64,000 nucleotides of DNA, taken from the NCBI RefSeq assembly GCF_001571385.1, contig NZ_BCNW01000001.1, positions 2,209,470 through 2,273,469 of the forward strand, given 5' to 3'. Position 1 is the first letter of the stretch, and every line of letters starts with the position of its first letter. Positions 3,730-13,930 of the stretch are shown piece after piece. The translations under genes were made by a program, and so were the position numbers. This DNA comes from Methanofollis ethanolicus. GTDB taxonomy: Archaea > Halobacteriota > Methanomicrobia > Methanomicrobiales > Methanofollaceae. The notes below the pieces were generated by a model. The model ran no database searches, had not been told where the DNA came from, and worked only from the letters and a program-made list of their open reading frames with translations.

Positions 3730-3956
3730 ATGGCAGCCAGGACGTACATGGTTACCGCACCAACCGCCGGGCCGCCATCACAGAGTCGGAGGGCGCGGCA
3801 CATAAGCATAGCGATGTGATCGAGGCGGTGCCTCTCTACCTCGTCCCCCCCGCGGTCACGGCCAGCGTGAAGAAGTTCGGCGGGGCGATCCGCGAAATGC
3901 ACGTGACGCGGGGCGGCAGGCACATGTACGGGATCACGGTGGTGGTGCAGGAATGA
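3717..3956 (+). CDS. Hypothetical 79-residue protein of the primase operon
   Basis: ATG 3717 follows GGAGGAG (3704-3712). The protein has a hydrophilic N-terminus and a C-terminal half that looks like a compact beta-rich fold (DVIEAVPLYLVPPAVTASV, then GGRHMYGITVVVQE). Its stop overlaps the start of the next gene by 4 bases (ATGA at 3953). I do not recognise the family. Its position just ahead of a primase-helicase gene suggests an accessory replication or copy-control role, which is inference only. Confidence 0.6.
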   Translation: MQGIDGSQDVHGYRTNRRAAITESEGAAHKHSDVIEAVPLYLVPPAVTASVKKFGGAIREMHVTRGGRHMYGITVVVQE

Positions 3957-4249
3957 CGGCCACTCTCCGTCTCGGGTCCGACGACGCGGTCTACCTGCTC
4001 GTCGGTCGGGAGCGCTACCGGATCGCCCCTGAAAACCTGCGCCTCCTCCTCGTCCGCGGCCACGCGGTGCCGGTGTGGGACGGGGAGGCAATCGTGGGCC
4101 ACGCGGCGGTGAACGCCGCGGGCCGTGCGGTGAAGGTCTTCACCGTGGCGGGCCACTTCATCGTGCCGCTCGTCTCGTTCCGCCGCGTCGCCACGGGCGA
4201 GGCCCGTTCCGCGCCGCTCTTCCCCCTGGTGCCGGAGGGGCGGCCATGA
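3953..4249 (+). CDS. Hypothetical 98-residue protein of the primase operon
   Basis: The start codon overlaps the previous stop (ATGA). The stop at 4247-4249 overlaps the ATG of the primase at 4246, so the three proteins are translationally coupled. The sequence alternates short beta-like strands (AVYLLVGRERYRIAPENL, VFTVAGHFIVPLVSF) and has no zinc ligands or P-loop. It is not recognised; small proteins in this position often belong to the replication module of integrated archaeal elements. Confidence 0.6.
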   Translation: MTATLRLGSDDAVYLLVGRERYRIAPENLRLLLVRGHAVPVWDGEAIVGHAAVNAAGRAVKVFTVAGHFIVPLVSFRRVATGEARSAPLFPLVPEGRP

Positions 4250-7011
4250 TCCCCCGGGCCCTCGCCGCCCTGTTTCCCGGCGGCGTGGTGGAGGTGCGGG
4301 CGTTGGGGGACTATGCGACGCACTCCGGTTACTTCGACGATTTTGCCCGCCTTGCGGCGGCAGCCGAGGCCCTGGACGCCGACCCCGAGGTCCGCGGGAT
4401 CTATGTCACCCTGAACGAGGTGGACCCGGCCCTCCTGGCCCGAAGAGCGAACAGGGTGAAGATGCGGCTTTCCCGGAGCGACGCCACCACCGCGGACGCC
4501 GACATCGTGCGCCGGCGCTGGTTGCCCATCGACCTGGACCCGGTGCGGCCGAGCGGGGTCTCGTCCACGGATGCGGAGCACGCGGCGGCACTCGCGAAGG
4601 CCGACGAGATCGCCCTCTGGCTTTCCGAACGGGGCTTCCCCGCCCCGATCAGGGCCGACTCGGGCAACGGGGCGCACCTCCTCTACCGGGTGGACCTCCC
4701 GCCCGACGACGAGGCGACGGCCCTGGTGAAGGGCGTGCTCGCCACCCTCGACGCCCTCTTCTCTGATGAGCACGTCACCGTGGACACGGCGAACTTTAAC
4801 CCGGCCCGGATCTGGAAACTCTACGGGACACTCTCCCGAAAAGGCGACCACACCCCGGAGAGGCCGCACCGGCGGGCGAGGATCCTCTCGGCGCCCGAGA
4901 CGGCGGAGGTGGTGGCGCCCGACCTCCTCAGGGAGACCGCCGCCCTCCTCCCGGTCGAGGCCCCGGCCCCGGCGAAGGGATCCAAGACCGACCTCACCGC
5001 CTGGCTTTCTGAGCACGGCATTGCCGTGCGGAGCACGCGGCCCTGGCAGGGCGGCACGCTGTACGTCCTCGCCGACTGCCCCTTCTCGACCGCCCACCGC
5101 GACGGCGCCTTCGCCGTCCAGTTCCCGAGCGGTGCGGTCTATGCCGGGTGCCACCACGCCTCCTGCGGCGGCGGGGTGCAGAGGTGGCCAGAACTGCGGG
5201 ACAGGTACGAACCAAAACAGCAGAAGAGGCGGGAGGTGCCGCCACCTCCCCCGAAACCTCCGGCACCCGACCCCGCATACCGCGAGAAAGCCCTCGCCAT
5301 CCTCACCCGCGGCGACCCCCGCGCCTTCCTCCTCGACACCTTCAACCGCGAGCACGTCGGCGACCGCACCGTCGCCGAGTGCCTGGTGATGTCCCTCGCC
5401 TCGCAGTCGGTGGAGAACACGAACGGGTTGCACGTCTCGGTCTCCGGGACCTCAGGGAAAGGGAAGAGCCACGCCTGCACCACCATGCTCAAGCAGGTGC
5501 CGACCGGCTACCGCCTCGCCGGGACCGTCTCGAACAAGGCTCTCTACTACAACGACGATCTGCGGCCGAGCACCGTCTTCCTCTTCGACGACGTCACCCT
5601 CTCCGAGGACCTCCAGGAGGTCCTGAAGGCGGCGACGGCGAACTTCAGGGAGAGGATCGAGCACCACACCGTCTCGCCCGACCGCAAACTCCAGGTCTGC
5701 CGGATACCTGAACGCTGCGTCTGGTGGCTCGCCCGCGTGGAAGATCCTGGCGACGACCAGGTGATGAACCGCATGCTCACCGTCTGGATCGACGACTCGG
5801 CCGAGCAGGACGAGCGTGTCCTCAGGCACATGAAAGAGCGGGAGGCGCGGGAGGACGACGGCGACGACGAGGACCCGGACCTTCCCGTCTGCCGCGCCAT
5901 CTGGGAGGTCCTCAAAGAGGAACGCCTCCACGTCTCCATCCCGTACGCGGAGAGAGTTCACTTCTCCGCCACCACCAACCGCCGCAACCCCGGCATGCTC
6001 TTCGACCTCATCAAGTGCCACGCCCTCCTCCACCGTTTCCAGAGGGAGGCGTACGACGGCGGCATCAGGGCCGACAGGTCGGACTTCGCCGCCGCTGCCC
6101 GGATATATGCGGCGATCAACGGCGAGTCGGGCGGGCAGGAGACGAAACTCACGAAGAACGAGGCCGCCGCCCTGGAGACGGTGGCCACGATGGGGTGGGA
6201 GCAGTTCACCGTCAAGATGCTCCAGGACGCCCTCGGGCTTTCGTACCAACAGACCTACCGTATCCTCCACGGCTACGCAAGCCGGGGGATGACCTACTCC
6301 GGCCTTCTGGAGAAGTGCCCGGCGATCAGTTATCTCGACACCATGGTCACCGAGGACTGCGAGGGCTACGCGGTCCGCCGGCGGGAGCACCTCTTTCTCT
6401 TCGACCGCGAGACCTACCGGCGCTGGGCACGCGGCGGCGAGGTGTGGATCGATGAGGGAGGTGACCGGGACGACGGTCCCGGTCCCGACCGCGATGATAC
6501 TTTCAGCATTTCAGCACGTTTTCAGCAGAATTTCAGCACCTGCCGCGATAGAAAAAAGACAAGGGACGGCCCGGAAACTGACAGTACTAGTACAGATAGA
6601 GAGACGCGTCTCTCTCTCTGTACTAACTTACAGCAAAACACACACCCACACAGTGACACCTCTCCCCCGGCGTCCGGGTGTGCGGGTGGGTGTGATATGC
6701 GCGATGCTGAAAACGATCCCGCGATGTCGCCGCTTCGGGGGGATAATCCTGATCGGCCACCATCAACACATCCGTTGAATTTCAGCACCTTCCGAAAGTT
6801 GCTGAAAACTGCTGAAAGAAAAGGACCGACGACACTCCCCGGCGTCCTGGACCACCGGGAGTTCACGCGGGTCTCGACCGACCTCGGACGGTGCACTGTC
6901 TGCGACGAGGGGAGGGCGGTGTACCGCTCAGGCGACGGGCGGGCGAGACTCTGCGAGAGGTGTTATGGTCGGTTGGTGCAGGCGTGGAATGAGAGGAGGG
7001 GGATTGCGTGA
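4246..7011 (+). CDS. Primase-polymerase/helicase fusion replication protein of an integrated element
   Basis: The 921-residue protein starts at ATG 4246, overlapping the upstream stop. Residues about 90-205 match the archaeo-eukaryotic PrimPol pattern: IDLDP (95-99), SGNGAHLLYRV (139-149) and NPARIWKLYGTLSRKG (185-200). A Cys/His zinc-binding segment follows (CPF...GCHHASCGG, about 270-310). A P-loop ATPase then starts near residue 401 (SGTSGKGKSH) with a Walker B-like VFLFDDV near 443, then winged-helix-like segments. The last ~45 residues form a CxxC...CxxC zinc knuckle. This layout is typical of self-replicating plasmid or virus Rep proteins. The low-complexity linker (6490-6830) contains repeated octamers and a 38-bp palindrome and probably doubles as the origin. 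Confidence 0.85.
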   Translation: MIPRALAALFPGGVVEVRALGDYATHSGYFDDFARLAAAAEALDADPEVRGIYVTLNEVDPALLARRANRVKMRLSRSDATTADADIVRRRWLPIDLDPVRPSGVSSTDAEHAAALAKADEIALWLSERGFPAPIRADSGNGAHLLYRVDLPPDDEATALVKGVLATLDALFSDEHVTVDTANFNPARIWKLYGTLSRKGDHTPERPHRRARILSAPETAEVVAPDLLRETAALLPVEAPAPAKGSKTDLTAWLSEHGIAVRSTRPWQGGTLYVLADCPFSTAHRDGAFAVQFPSGAVYAGCHHASCGGGVQRWPELRDRYEPKQQKRREVPPPPPKPPAPDPAYREKALAILTRGDPRAFLLDTFNREHVGDRTVAECLVMSLASQSVENTNGLHVSVSGTSGKGKSHACTTMLKQVPTGYRLAGTVSNKALYYNDDLRPSTVFLFDDVTLSEDLQEVLKAATANFRERIEHHTVSPDRKLQVCRIPERCVWWLARVEDPGDDQVMNRMLTVWIDDSAEQDERVLRHMKEREAREDDGDDEDPDLPVCRAIWEVLKEERLHVSIPYAERVHFSATTNRRNPGMLFDLIKCHALLHRFQREAYDGGIRADRSDFAAAARIYAAINGESGGQETKLTKNEAAALETVATMGWEQFTVKMLQDALGLSYQQTYRILHGYASRGMTYSGLLEKCPAISYLDTMVTEDCEGYAVRRREHLFLFDRETYRRWARGGEVWIDEGGDRDDGPGPDRDDTFSISARFQQNFSTCRDRKKTRDGPETDSTSTDRETRLSLCTNLQQNTHPHSDTSPPASGCAGGCDMRDAENDPAMSPLRGDNPDRPPSTHPLNFSTFRKLLKTAERKGPTTLPGVLDHREFTRVSTDLGRCTVCDEGRAVYRSGDGRARLCERCYGRLVQAWNERRGIA
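6501..6817. other. Candidate replication origin: eight TTTCAGCA iterons around a 38-bp palindrome
   Basis: TTTCAGCA occurs on the plus strand at 6501, 6509, 6520, 6531 and 6780. Its complement TGCTGAAA occurs at 6705, 6800 and 6810. Between the two groups, 6588-6606 (TAGTACAGATAGAGAGACG) and 6607-6625 (CGTCTCTCTCTCTGTACTA) form an uninterrupted inverted repeat with 18 of 19 positions paired. Iterons of this type inside a replication gene are known from phage lambda O and related replicons. The encoded segment is a low-complexity linker, so the DNA may be under non-coding selection. Confidence 0.6.
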
Positions 7012-9073: not shown

Positions 9074-10273
9074 TCACCGCCCACCATCATATCGACACTT
9101 TCCATCGTCCGCAACACCGGCCGGAGACACAACCGATACCTCCGCCGAACCAGAAGGAGCGATCACCTCCCCCACGCCGTCCCTCACCTCGATCACCCGC
9201 GTCCTCCCCTTCCCCTGCCGCACCGCGAGGTCCACGAGGCGCAGGTGCTCCAACTTCTTCAGCCTCTCGTGGAAGGTCGTGTAACTCGTCCTCCCCCCTG
9301 CGCAGACCCGCTCGTACGCCATCCCGGCCGTCACCGGCCCGCCTCCCTCCCGCTCCAGGGCGAGGACCGCGTCGAGCACCGCCCTCTCCCCCGCCGCGAG
9401 GGACCGCACTGCAATCGCCACATGCAGGTGCCGGGAGAGGGAGTACGCCGTCAGCACGTCCTCGACCGTCACCTCGGTCCTCGCCTCCTTCTCCGCCGCA
9501 AGCACCGCCCTCTTCACCATGTCCAGACCGATCCGCAGGTCGCCGCAGGCCATCGTCCGCTCCACCAGGAGGTCCATCGCCGCCGGCGGCAGCACGCCCG
9601 GGTACAGCCCGACCAGCACGCGCTCGCCGATGATGCCCCGCACTTCGTCGGCGGTGTAGGGCGGGAAGGCAACCTCGTTCGGGCAGAGCACCGAAAACGT
9701 CGGGCGGTCGAGGTCGCGGAGGAGGTCGAACGCCGGGCACGAGACGGTCATCCACACCCCGGTCCGTGCGCCCGGATAACTCTCGTGGAGGCGGAGGATG
9801 GCGGCGAGCACCTCGTTCAGCACGCCGTCGGGGAGGAGTGCGTCGGCGTCGTCGAGGCAGACGACGAGAACCGCCTCGCGCGTGGCCAGGAGGTGCCCCA
9901 CCTCGTCGACGATCTTGGTGTAGGGCACGCCGACCGCCGGGGGTTTGTGGCCCGCGATCCCCTCGTAGATGCGGGCGAAGACCGCCGGCCGCGTCCTGTC
10001 CTTCTGGCAGGAGACGAGGACGGGCACGACCATCTGCGTCGTCTCCTCGACCTCGGCGAAGATGCGGCGGACAGCGGTGGTCTTCCCCGTGCCGGGCGGT
10101 CCCCGGAGGACGGTGTTGAGGGGGCGGGTGCCGCGGAGGGCGGGCCGCAGGGCGAAGGCGAGGTCTTTGACCTGGGTGTCGCGGTAGTTGAACTGTTCGG
10201 GGAGGCGGTCGAACTCGAAGAGGTCGGGGTCGCGGAAGAGCGTCTGGTCGCTCATGAGGAGGGAGGGTGTCAT
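9074..10273 (-). CDS. Orc1/Cdc6-family replication initiator AAA+ ATPase
   Basis: The 399-residue length is normal for archaeal Orc1/Cdc6. It shows Walker A GPPGTGKTT (58-66), Walker B VVCLDDAD (137-144), sensor motifs further on, and a C-terminal winged helix (SYTTFHERLKKLEHLRLV). A TATATA at 10296-10301 lies 23 bp before ATG 10273, fitting a leaderless transcript and favouring that start over the internal Met7. Its place in a block with a primase-helicase suggests an element-borne copy, but a chromosomal initiator cannot be excluded. I see no clear canonical ORB element beside it. Confidence 0.9.
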   Translation of the reverse strand: MTPSLLMSDQTLFRDPDLFEFDRLPEQFNYRDTQVKDLAFALRPALRGTRPLNTVLRGPPGTGKTTAVRRIFAEVEETTQMVVPVLVSCQKDRTRPAVFARIYEGIAGHKPPAVGVPYTKIVDEVGHLLATREAVLVVCLDDADALLPDGVLNEVLAAILRLHESYPGARTGVWMTVSCPAFDLLRDLDRPTFSVLCPNEVAFPPYTADEVRGIIGERVLVGLYPGVLPPAAMDLLVERTMACGDLRIGLDMVKRAVLAAEKEARTEVTVEDVLTAYSLSRHLHVAIAVRSLAAGERAVLDAVLALEREGGGPVTAGMAYERVCAGGRTSYTTFHERLKKLEHLRLVDLAVRQGKGRTRVIEVRDGVGEVIAPSGSAEVSVVSPAGVADDGKCRYDGGR

Positions 10274-10337: not shown

Positions 10338-10580
10338 TCACCCCCACCCGATCACCTTCACCACCACGGCGACGATACCGCCGACGACCCCGCCCGCGCC
10401 GGCGGCGATCTGGCGTTCCCGCCGTTCCTCCCCTGCCGCCTCGCTCCGCCACCCTTCGAGGGCGCGGAGGCGGCCCTCCATCTCGGCGTCGCGGTCTTTC
10501 ATCTCGGCCAGGGTCCGGCAGATCCATTTCACGTCTCGGGCGGTCTCGACGACCAGTTCCCGGGTGCTCTTCTCGGGCAT
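10338..10580 (-). CDS. Small coiled-coil/transmembrane protein, 80 residues
   Basis: The frame is open far upstream, but the sequence becomes protein-like only from the ATG at 10580 (MPEKSTRELVVETARDVKW). About 50 charged helical residues are followed by a Gly/Val/Ala-rich membrane segment (GAGGVVGGIVAVVVKVIGW) at the very C-terminus. This resembles the short XhlA/BhlA-type holin-associated proteins of bacterial phages in size and layout. That likeness is structural only. It would be tail-anchored with the coiled coil in the cytoplasm. Confidence 0.6.
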   Translation of the reverse strand: MPEKSTRELVVETARDVKWICRTLAEMKDRDAEMEGRLRALEGWRSEAAGEERRERQIAAGAGGVVGGIVAVVVKVIGWG

Positions 10581-10616
10581 GATTGAAGAAACCTCTCCGC
10601 GGTCAAGGTAGATTAA

Positions 10617-10633
10617 TATTACTTGTGGTAATA
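10617..10633. promoter_or_regulatory. Inverted repeat TATTAC-N5-GTAATA in a divergent promoter region
   Basis: Perfect 6-bp arms with a 5-bp spacer lie in the 105-bp gap between the divergent genes starting at 10580 (minus) and 10686 (plus). It overlaps the only AT-rich stretch there, where TATA boxes would lie. A shared operator is plausible. Confidence 0.45.
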
Positions 10634-10685
10634 GTTCTCTCCAGCCTGTGATGGACCCGGGACCTCCAGGCAGGAGATCGAACAC

Positions 10686-11189
10686 ATGGCAGACTTTGCC
10701 CTGTCCACCACGAACAAGACGTCGGTGCGGAAACTGACCGTGCCGATCGAGGATGCTGCCACTTTCAATGGCATCATCGAGAATGTCCTGACGAACAACC
10801 CCTGGGGCTGCACCTCCTGGGAGGGAGCGGGCGTCTCGCACGACCCGGTCGAGAAGGCCGGCGAGGCCTACACGGCCCGGGTCATGTACGAGAACACCCT
10901 CGGCCGCGTCGTCGGCACGGCCGCGGCACGCGCTCCCACTCTCGCCGGGTTCAACGCGGCGAAGACCGAGATCCTCGGGAACACCGCACTCGAGACCGCC
11001 ATCGGCGGTTCCGCGGTCGCCGACCCGGACAGCGAGGCGTACACCTGCCGCCTCAAGTGCCACGCGGCAAACGGCGAGGTGTACTCCGTCGCCTTCACCC
11101 GCACCTCGGTGCGGGTCTCGTCCTACGAGGACGATGCCGTCCTCGCGGCGGTCGAGGCATGGGCAGACGGCGTGGCCGCGCTGGGGTGA
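10686..11189 (+). CDS. Hypothetical 167-residue protein of the mobile block
   Basis: ATG 10686 follows GGAG about 10 bases upstream. The protein has no signal peptide or membrane segment and is rich in Ala, Thr and Val with regular beta/alpha alternation (SVRKLTVPIEDAATFNGII, TLGRVVGTAAARAPT, VYSVAFTRTSVRVSSY). Two Cys near residue 122 (CRLKC) could bind metal. I do not recognise a family. A structural or accessory protein of an archaeal virus-like element is possible but unproven. A T-tract at 11217-11223 after the stop probably terminates it. Confidence 0.6.
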   Translation: MADFALSTTNKTSVRKLTVPIEDAATFNGIIENVLTNNPWGCTSWEGAGVSHDPVEKAGEAYTARVMYENTLGRVVGTAAARAPTLAGFNAAKTEILGNTALETAIGGSAVADPDSEAYTCRLKCHAANGEVYSVAFTRTSVRVSSYEDDAVLAAVEAWADGVAALG

Positions 11190-12129: not shown

Positions 12130-12825
12130 ATGTATCCCAACGGCCTTTTTGAAGAAGCAGAGGATATAATATCTATTTTACGTGAAAAACTTCCCAAACA
12201 CGTCGATGGAAAAGACGCGATTCTGGAATTAAAAGAGGCCGACTACCAATGGCGCCAGATGGAATGGGTCGGGTGGTATTATGAATACAAGATATTTTCC
12301 GTCCTCTCCGAAACCCTCGGGGGCGCCCTCGGTCCGGCCTATGGAAACACGACATTTGATTATAAGCGGCACCTCGTCTGGGACCTGAAGGCACACCCGA
12401 AACATACGAACAAAGGGACACCAAACGAACCGATGATCCTCAATGATCAGGAAGCAGTCGAGTCGTGTGTTGCGGAGAACGGTGGAGTGGGTTTCATCGT
12501 CGTAAAAGGAGAAGCACAATTCGATAACTCCGGGGAGTTCAAAGTATGGCACGACATCCTAAAAGGCGGGACTTCGGCATACGAACATGAACGGGTCAGG
12601 CGCGGTGCAACGTCCAGAATGAGAAAAGTCGCATTCGACATCGACAGCATCGATGCCTACTTCATAGAGGATCAATCCGTTCTCGATAGGGGTATTGAAG
12701 AAGGGTGGCTGAAATTTTTCCAGAAAGGTATGCGGAATGCCGACGGCAGCCCAAGACGTGCAAAATATGCACTTCGGACCGACAAAGCCCCTCGTTCACT
12801 GAAAGTCGCCTCTGTGAGGTATTGA
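12130..12825 (+). CDS. Putative type II restriction endonuclease
   Basis: The 231-residue protein converges on an adenine/cytosine-N4 methyltransferase 46 bp away, the classic type II pair arrangement. A PD-(D/E)xK-like core is visible around residues 70-95: YGNTTFDYKR followed by HLVWDLKAHP, where D and DLK could supply the metal ligands. It is markedly richer in A/T codons and Lys/Asn than the chromosomal genes nearby, consistent with recent acquisition. I cannot assign a recognition site. The assignment rests on context plus the weak motif. Confidence 0.65.
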   Translation: MYPNGLFEEAEDIISILREKLPKHVDGKDAILELKEADYQWRQMEWVGWYYEYKIFSVLSETLGGALGPAYGNTTFDYKRHLVWDLKAHPKHTNKGTPNEPMILNDQEAVESCVAENGGVGFIVVKGEAQFDNSGEFKVWHDILKGGTSAYEHERVRRGATSRMRKVAFDIDSIDAYFIEDQSVLDRGIEEGWLKFFQKGMRNADGSPRRAKYALRTDKAPRSLKVASVRY

Positions 12826-12871
12826 TCGTTCCTGCCATTCTTCACAGGGAAAAAAAACAGGGAAAAAAAAG

Positions 12872-13930
12872 TTATTCATAAGAAAGAACTGATTGACCTC
12901 TGAGCGTTCCATCACCTACTTTTTTCTTCGGTCTGCCTCGTTTGCCATTGGACTGGCCCAGATTCTTCAGCATCTTCTCAAGGGACCACCGGCCTCGGCC
13001 AAGTTCCTTTTCCAGTATTTCTATCGTGTTTTTCTTTGTTTCGCCGGATTCGATAAGCTGATTGAACCTGATCAGCAGGGCCTTTTTCTCATCTTCGGTC
13101 CATGCCTTGCCCTGGTTCGCCTTCTCCTCGATCTCAGGATCTCTGAGTGTGGACAGAAGACTTCCTGGTTTGATGTTTGTTATTTCTTCGGTTTTCGTAT
13201 CAAACATCGAAGGGGAGATCTCAAAACCCGTCGCCCGGCGATTCAGACCGATAGCAATTTTTGCGGTTGAAAAGCCTCCCAGGAACATATCACAGACCAG
13301 ATCCCCTTCATTGCTACTGTACTGTATCATTTTCGTGAGCAGGGCAGTCGGCAATTCATTCTTGTTTTTCACCTGCCCCGGCTTGTATTCACGGTTGATG
13401 ATCCAGACATCTTCACGGTCCTGATAGTTCAATGAACCATTATCCACTGCTTTTTCCGTAACCCCGAACCGCGATTCCAGATTAAATGTCCTGTTCCCAC
13501 CTGGTTTCTGGTAATAGAGAATGTGATAATGGGACGACACATATTTTTTGCTGGTATAGACTCCGAAATTGTATTTCCAGATTATGTGATTGATTTCTTC
13601 AAGACAGGTCTGCCGAAGAGCAGAGAGAATATGATAGAGGTTCGTATATCCCGAAACAATGTAGATGGATCCACCCGGCTTAAGAATGCGCTCCGCCTCT
13701 TTTATCCAGTTCAGACTAAATTCACCATATTCTGACGCGGGAACTTCGACATACCCTTCAACGACAAAAGCCTCGTTTCTATTATAGTGCAGGTGGAGTT
13801 TATCCCCATTGATGCCATACGGGGGATCGGTGATGATAAGATCGACAGAATTTGATTCTATATGTTTTTTTGCCCCCGATATGCAGTCTTCATTGTAAAA
13901 TTTACCCGTGGGCGTAATTATCGGTTCCAT
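12872..13930 (-). CDS. DNA methyltransferase, DPPY type (N6-adenine or N4-cytosine), type II RM
   Basis: The 352-residue protein has the catalytic motif IV TDPPYGING near residue 35 and the AdoMet-binding motif I (CDMFLGGFSTAKIAIG) about 200 residues later. This is the beta-class order (IV, target recognition, I). A basic C-terminal tail (GRGRWSLEKMLKNLG, then KRGRPKKK) resembles a DNA-binding appendage. It is low in GC compared with the chromosomal genes. It faces the endonuclease tail to tail, and A-rich tracts between them (12849-12871) act as terminators in both directions. The methylated sequence is not readable from this. Confidence 0.9.
   Translation of the reverse strand: MEPIITPTGKFYNEDCISGAKKHIESNSVDLIITDPPYGINGDKLHLHYNRNEAFVVEGYVEVPASEYGEFSLNWIKEAERILKPGGSIYIVSGYTNLYHILSALRQTCLEEINHIIWKYNFGVYTSKKYVSSHYHILYYQKPGGNRTFNLESRFGVTEKAVDNGSLNYQDREDVWIINREYKPGQVKNKNELPTALLTKMIQYSSNEGDLVCDMFLGGFSTAKIAIGLNRRATGFEISPSMFDTKTEEITNIKPGSLLSTLRDPEIEEKANQGKAWTEDEKKALLIRFNQLIESGETKKNTIEILEKELGRGRWSLEKMLKNLGQSNGKRGRPKKKVGDGTLRGQSVLSYE

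Follow-up and report, generated by a model that had tools for sequence, protein, structure and literature searches.

A candidate iteron origin inside the PrimPol-MCM-type initiator gene of archaeal integrative elements covaries with the initiator's winged helix

Origins carried in or beside initiator genes

Lambda O is a protein without helicase or primase, and N15 RepA is a P4-alpha-like protein whose primase is of the bacterial type. In the lambdoid phages, iterons bound by the product of the O gene lie in the middle of that same gene, beside an AT-rich region (PMC5043065, PMC7466680). The N15 repA gene, which encodes a primase-helicase, contains the origin (PMC4165912), and the repA gene of PY54 is cited as a minimal replicon (PMC10612081). 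SaPI Rep and SCCmec Cch2 are self-loading helicases whose C-terminal domain recognises their own iterons downstream (PMC7581432). The PrimPol-helicase orf904 of pRN1 has its origin 3' of the gene, in the form of a stem-loop of about 100 bp with no iterons (PMC4234260). For mobile-element PrimPol-helicases of the PrimPol-PV1 supergroup and the PrimQH type, the winged helix is proposed as the origin recogniser (PMC5862659).

The locus described here belongs to a 64-kb stretch of archaeal DNA (the window) and bears an array of octamers within the gene of a PrimPol-MCM-type initiator. We consider it very probable that this array is an initiator-specific iteron origin that an integrative archaeal element carries within the linker-coding part of its own initiator gene. 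As in lambda O, the iterons are inside the gene of their putative reader and a low-GC region adjoins them; unlike in lambda O, the system is archaeal and the centre lies between two site sets that mostly point in opposite directions, the comparison being one of layout rather than of homology. With N15 and PY54 RepA it shares a multifunctional protein that unites primase, helicase and putative origin binder and whose gene holds the candidate origin; compared by description, it differs from them in having a PrimPol and an MCM-like AAA+ helicase, in being archaeal and in its apparent integration at tRNA genes. The iterons at the 3' side of a helicase gene and a C-terminal DNA-binding domain as presumptive reader recall SaPI Rep and SCCmec Cch2. 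The SaPI and SCCmec origins are found 3' of the gene, as are the arrays of one subclade of our homologues (L040, L068, L071 and L076), whereas otherwise the array is in frame here. The likeness to pRN1 consists of an archaeal PrimPol-helicase with a winged helix, together with a comparable potential stem-loop of 85 nt, but here iterons are present and inside the gene and the helicase is MCM-like rather than SF3; the iteron-free stem-loop of about 100 nt downstream of the gene, typical of the pRN1 origin, is not what we found. PrimPol-PV1 proteins are likewise described with a PrimPol, a zinc or PriCT domain, an AAA+ or MCM-type ATPase and a winged helix, and the descriptions that we compared do not mention an embedded origin, a linker or a C-terminal zinc ribbon (PMC5862659). 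In the open-licence PMC papers searched we found no iteron origin within an archaeal initiator gene. An earlier note on this DNA had proposed a new replicon type; since lambda O and N15 repA are earlier, bacterial examples of embedded origins, what is new is the archaeal PrimPol-MCM version and its coevolution code.

The initiator gene and its product

The initiator gene, at positions 4246 to 7011 of the window, is on the forward strand, as are all the domains given below, and encodes 921 amino acids from an ATG at 4246, in an open frame that starts at 4075. Its product showed no family match in Pfam or NCBIfam, and a sequence search of the PDB gave no convincing match. We describe it from an AlphaFold model, calculated with an alignment of 83 homologues, and from its motifs. 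The PrimPol domain (residues 1-236; 4246 to 4953) is seen in the model and contains the invariant D96/D98 and the SGNGAH motif. The AAA+ helicase core (residues 343-540; 5272 to 5865) shows an MCM-like fold with the Walker A sequence GTSGKGKS, and its best PDB structure matches in Foldseek were MCM helicases. A winged-helix domain (residues 637-735; 6154 to 6450), a zinc or PriCT-like region and a disordered linker at about residues 739-861 are also modelled, and a C-terminal zinc ribbon covers residues 862-917 (6829 to 6996). Model and motifs together indicate that PrimPol, AAA+ helicase and winged helix are combined in one protein. The entire array, our candidate embedded origin, falls within the DNA coding for the disordered linker, in a variable stretch from 6442 to 6834 whose pLDDT is about 30.

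The octamer array

The eight octamer positions reported in the earlier note were all exact. TTTCAGCA is present on the forward strand at 6501 to 6508, 6509 to 6516, 6520 to 6527 and 6531 to 6538 (iterons 1 to 4) and at 6780 to 6787 (iteron 7), and inverted at 6705 to 6712, 6800 to 6807 and 6810 to 6817 (iterons 6, 9 and 10). These are the only copies in the window, none lying outside 6501-6817, against 0.64 expected, and none of 100 whole-window shuffles reached eight. Two further sites that had been missed fit the conserved grid described below, namely TTACAGCA at 6628 to 6635 on the forward strand (iteron 5) and a degenerate copy, TTTCGGAA, at 6790 to 6797 on the reverse strand (iteron 8). 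The whole genome contains 81 copies of TTTCAGCA in 2.71 Mb, of which 66 are scattered and 15 form two clusters, the window array and a 90%-identical paralogue at G000:C1:593 kb. Pairs of copies 30 bp or less apart were found at these two places only, which shows that such clusters are not a genomic background, and the background itself predicts about 0.008 copies per 317 bp, close to the 0.01 estimated earlier. Because the octamers of the array occupy all three reading frames, repeated protein sequence cannot account for them. Moreover, the window linker has nine near-copies, whereas 40 synonymous-codon shuffles gave at most six.

Between the two site sets there is a low-GC stretch (6578 to 6627; GC 0.46 against 0.68 for the gene) that we regard as a candidate unwinding region. 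The spacerless inverted repeat noted previously was found as claimed at 6588 to 6625: two arms of 19 nt with 18 of 19 positions complementary, forming a 38-bp palindrome, AGAGAGACGCGTCTCTCT with its flanks, in the low-GC stretch of the window's lineage, with a folding z of -5.0.

A conserved grid of sites in homologous genes

The initiator family is common in Methanomicrobiales, with a match in 93 of 150 related genomes, often in several copies, and its closest named relatives are from Methanofollis. In some 100 homologues from Methanomicrobiales we saw no conservation of the linker protein, yet the repeats return at equal offsets; the reverse situation, a conserved linker protein with freely varying octamers, was absent. 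Counted from the first iteron, the sites are placed at 0, 8, 19 and 30 (+), in some loci at 40 (-), then at 127 (+) and 204 (-), and on the right side at 279 (+) and 289, 299-300, 309 and 330 (-). Spacing within the blocks is 10-11 nt, which matches one helical turn. Offsets were common to up to 42 of the 57 loci, across up to 16 iteron types, whereas random placements reached 15 at most. Within each gene the repeat sequence changes in concert and it differs between lineages, the variants being TTTCAGCA, TTGCAGCA, TGACAGCA, TTACAGCA, TGGCAGCA, CTTCAGCA, TTGCACC, TTTCACC, TTTCATC and others. As the repeat sequence switches, conservation of the octamer itself fails as a test, and the grid is the conserved object. 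The expectation that octamer spacing and palindrome would both be kept despite a variable linker thus holds for the grid, but the octamer is lineage-specific and the palindrome, significant in 21 of 47 loci, belongs chiefly to the window's lineage (Methanofollis) and is weaker or absent elsewhere while the iterons persist, so it is not a universal feature.

The exact octamer of each lineage has a density of 9.75/kb in the linker against 0.033/kb in the rest of the same loci, a difference of about 300 times, and no second octamer cluster was seen in the surrounding kilobases. Sixty-three of 95 linkers exceeded all of 40 shuffles that preserve protein and codons. In about one third of the linkers no motif clearly exceeded the synonymous shuffles, so that some copies may be decayed or have sites missed by the search. 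The low-GC centre recurs as well: in the homologous loci the 50 nt 5' of iteron 5 have a mean GC of 0.43 against 0.65 upstream in the gene, and in 44 of 49 loci their GC is below the average of the linker.

A natural control is provided by L040, L068, L071 and L076, where the frame stops 31 codons into the linker. In these loci five of about eight sites are in non-coding DNA with their order kept, and the left block has shifted with respect to the centre by a distance close to one helical turn. Since the sites persist as non-coding DNA, the array is a DNA element in its own right. In three other loci (L085, with a linker of 897 bp, L166 and L137) the right-hand iteron block is tandemly repeated. 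The periods, 153 bp in L085 and about 195 bp in L137, are divisible by three, and the array therefore seems to have been enlarged with the frame kept open.

Coevolution of the winged helix and the repeat

For each gene we compared the iteron consensus with the winged helix that the gene encodes. Base 3 of the iteron covaries with residues 668-669 (codons at 6247 to 6252) and base 6 with residue 679 (codon at 6280 to 6282); our scripts, which number from the start of the open frame, list as 739, 740 and 750 the residues that are 668, 669 and 679 when the 921 aa are counted from the ATG. Proteins with Q at 668 have T at base 3, those with H have G, those with Y mostly have G as well, and those in which Q is followed by K have A. 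For residue 679, S is found together with G at base 6, N in most cases with C, and A with A. By mutual information over 516 non-linker columns, 668 is the top column for base 3 and 679 for base 6, and both remain first among the 439 variable columns tested. Kinship was controlled with protein pairs whose tree paths do not overlap. In these disjoint pairs a difference at residue 668 comes with a difference at base 3 in 17 of 18 cases, against 2 of 22 if 668-669 agree (p = 4e-8), and a difference at 679 comes with one at base 6 in 15 of 17 cases, against 2 of 24 if 679 is the same (p = 2.5e-7). With a tree made from the winged helix without these sites the signal was kept (p = 8e-5 for base 3 and 4e-6 for base 6), so the covariation is not accounted for by winged helix and linker being exchanged together. 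Among homologues not used to derive the code, base 3 was correct in 17 of 17 and base 6 in 18 of 20 confident cases; this set came from another collection, was scored afterwards by manual tally up to L215, with the last three loci left out, and is not a fully independent sample because several of its members are related to the first set. The subclade members L040 and L071 fit the base-3 rule poorly.

The AlphaFold model places residues 668 and 669 within the recognition helix, which spans 667-675, and 679 at the wing tip, as the last residue of the wing's first strand; as modelled, 668 and 679 lie at usual DNA-contact positions of winged helices. Judging from this covariation, the iterons are very likely bound by the winged helix of their own protein, and we infer that base 3 would be read by the recognition helix and base 6 by the wing. 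With nucleotide-exact positions, a protein and repeats that vary, and a repeat that coevolves with its reader, there is strong support for the proposal in the earlier note that the linker owes its existence to the protein-binding sites in its DNA.

Alternative functions and the proposed mechanism

Coevolution would imply binding by the gene's own protein equally well if the array were an operator from which the protein represses transcription inside its own gene. We consider such autoregulation unlikely, given that the array is at the 3' end of the gene and that no promoter-near iteron cluster, the sign expected of it, was found in 54 loci. The genes downstream vary among loci, so no shared downstream promoter is served; furthermore, a PrimPol-helicase is an initiator-type protein, and the rigid arrangement of the sites around a low-GC centre resembles that of an origin. 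It seems somewhat less probable still that the array is a centromere-like, recombination or telomere-resolution site that uses the same protein. The central palindrome, strongest in the window's lineage, and the integrases nearby speak for it; against it, the iterons persist in loci without a significant palindrome, integration seems to be at the tRNA genes adjoining the integrases, away from the array, and the protein has primase and helicase domains.

The repeats could also act in the mRNA, through pairing of iterons 5 and 6 or of plus and minus copies. Iterons 5 and 6 are indeed the closing arms of a potential stem-loop of 85 nt (6628 to 6712) with a mean interior z of -1.24 compared with 0.15 upstream, yet this stem-loop is weak in many loci, and RNA structure leaves unexplained both the direct repeats 11 nt apart, one DNA turn, and the iteron bases that track recognition helix and wing, which makes it very improbable. 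That the array is chance low-complexity coding sequence, or repeats driven by the protein, agrees with the disordered linker, but the use of three frames, the counts above synonymous shuffles and the retention as non-coding DNA in four genomes rule out the repeats as a protein feature and reduce this explanation to a nearly negligible probability.

The origin that we favour contains multiple short repeat copies, with binding by the initiator suggested by the coevolution, and an AT-rich region beside them, the candidate unwinding region; the array lies within the coding frame of its putative reader. In the mechanism we propose by analogy, the winged helix would dock on the octamers as iterons, and the direct left block and the mostly inverted right block would seat the helicase on either side of the melting region. 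The low-GC centre, palindromic in some lineages, would melt, after which the protein would unwind the DNA and its PrimPol domain would prime. A change in winged-helix specificity would be followed by a change of the sites within the gene, giving each lineage its own initiator-origin pair. More broadly, these are probably widespread archaeal integrative replicons with the origin in the frame of a PrimPol-MCM initiator and a two-site code (668/base 3, 679/base 6), in which sweeping specificity shifts create incompatibility groups, several per genome.

Over 60 natural variants whose iterons could be read offer a recognition code for the winged helix of an MCM-type initiator, and this code is amenable to single-substitution tests: Q668H is predicted to change the preference from TTTCAGCA to TTGCAGCA, the H668 type, and S679N to TTTCACCA. 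The linker also offers a clear example of a single DNA stretch that evolves under two constraints simultaneously, those of a coding sequence and those of a site array, and the initiator gene is a candidate self-contained replicon for Methanomicrobiales vectors.

Element context and neighbouring genes

The homologous loci look like integrative elements. A tyrosine integrase is near the initiator in 24 loci (PF00589 in the one tested), and in several integrase-bearing loci, including the paralogue L038, a tRNA gene is close to it; for the L038 element we looked for a duplicate of the 3' end of tRNA-Ser, which would mark the att boundary, and did not find one. The window copy may be a partial element, as no recognisable integrase was seen close by. 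None of 22 short whole contigs had the overlapping ends of a circular or excised form. Searches of viral contigs gave only two distant relatives (33% across the helicase region), and phage and plasmid collections only partial matches on the PrimPol side.

A 98-aa gene at 3953 to 4249 (+) overlaps the initiator start and has relatives in 66 examined loci. An Orc1/Cdc6 gene at 9074 to 10273 (-) has counterparts beside the initiator in 32 loci. The genome has seven Orc1/Cdc6 matches, several of which adjoin copies of the initiator element (the window gene and those at 588, 882 and 1754 kb of G000:C1), and it looks as if an Orc1/Cdc6 comes with the element. A protein starting with MADF and a small XhlA/holin-like protein recur together near the initiator in 31 and 26 loci, respectively; in the window the pair is at 10338-11189 and neither matches Pfam. 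L008 (G000:C1:1407196-1407510) is a remnant that matches the linker region only (query 762-868), has one stop codon and still contains TTTCAGCA; it is probably a decayed copy of the element. At 12130-13930 of the window, a low-GC stretch contains a gene without assignment as well as an N6/N4 DNA methylase; the two may form a restriction-modification pair adjoining the element.
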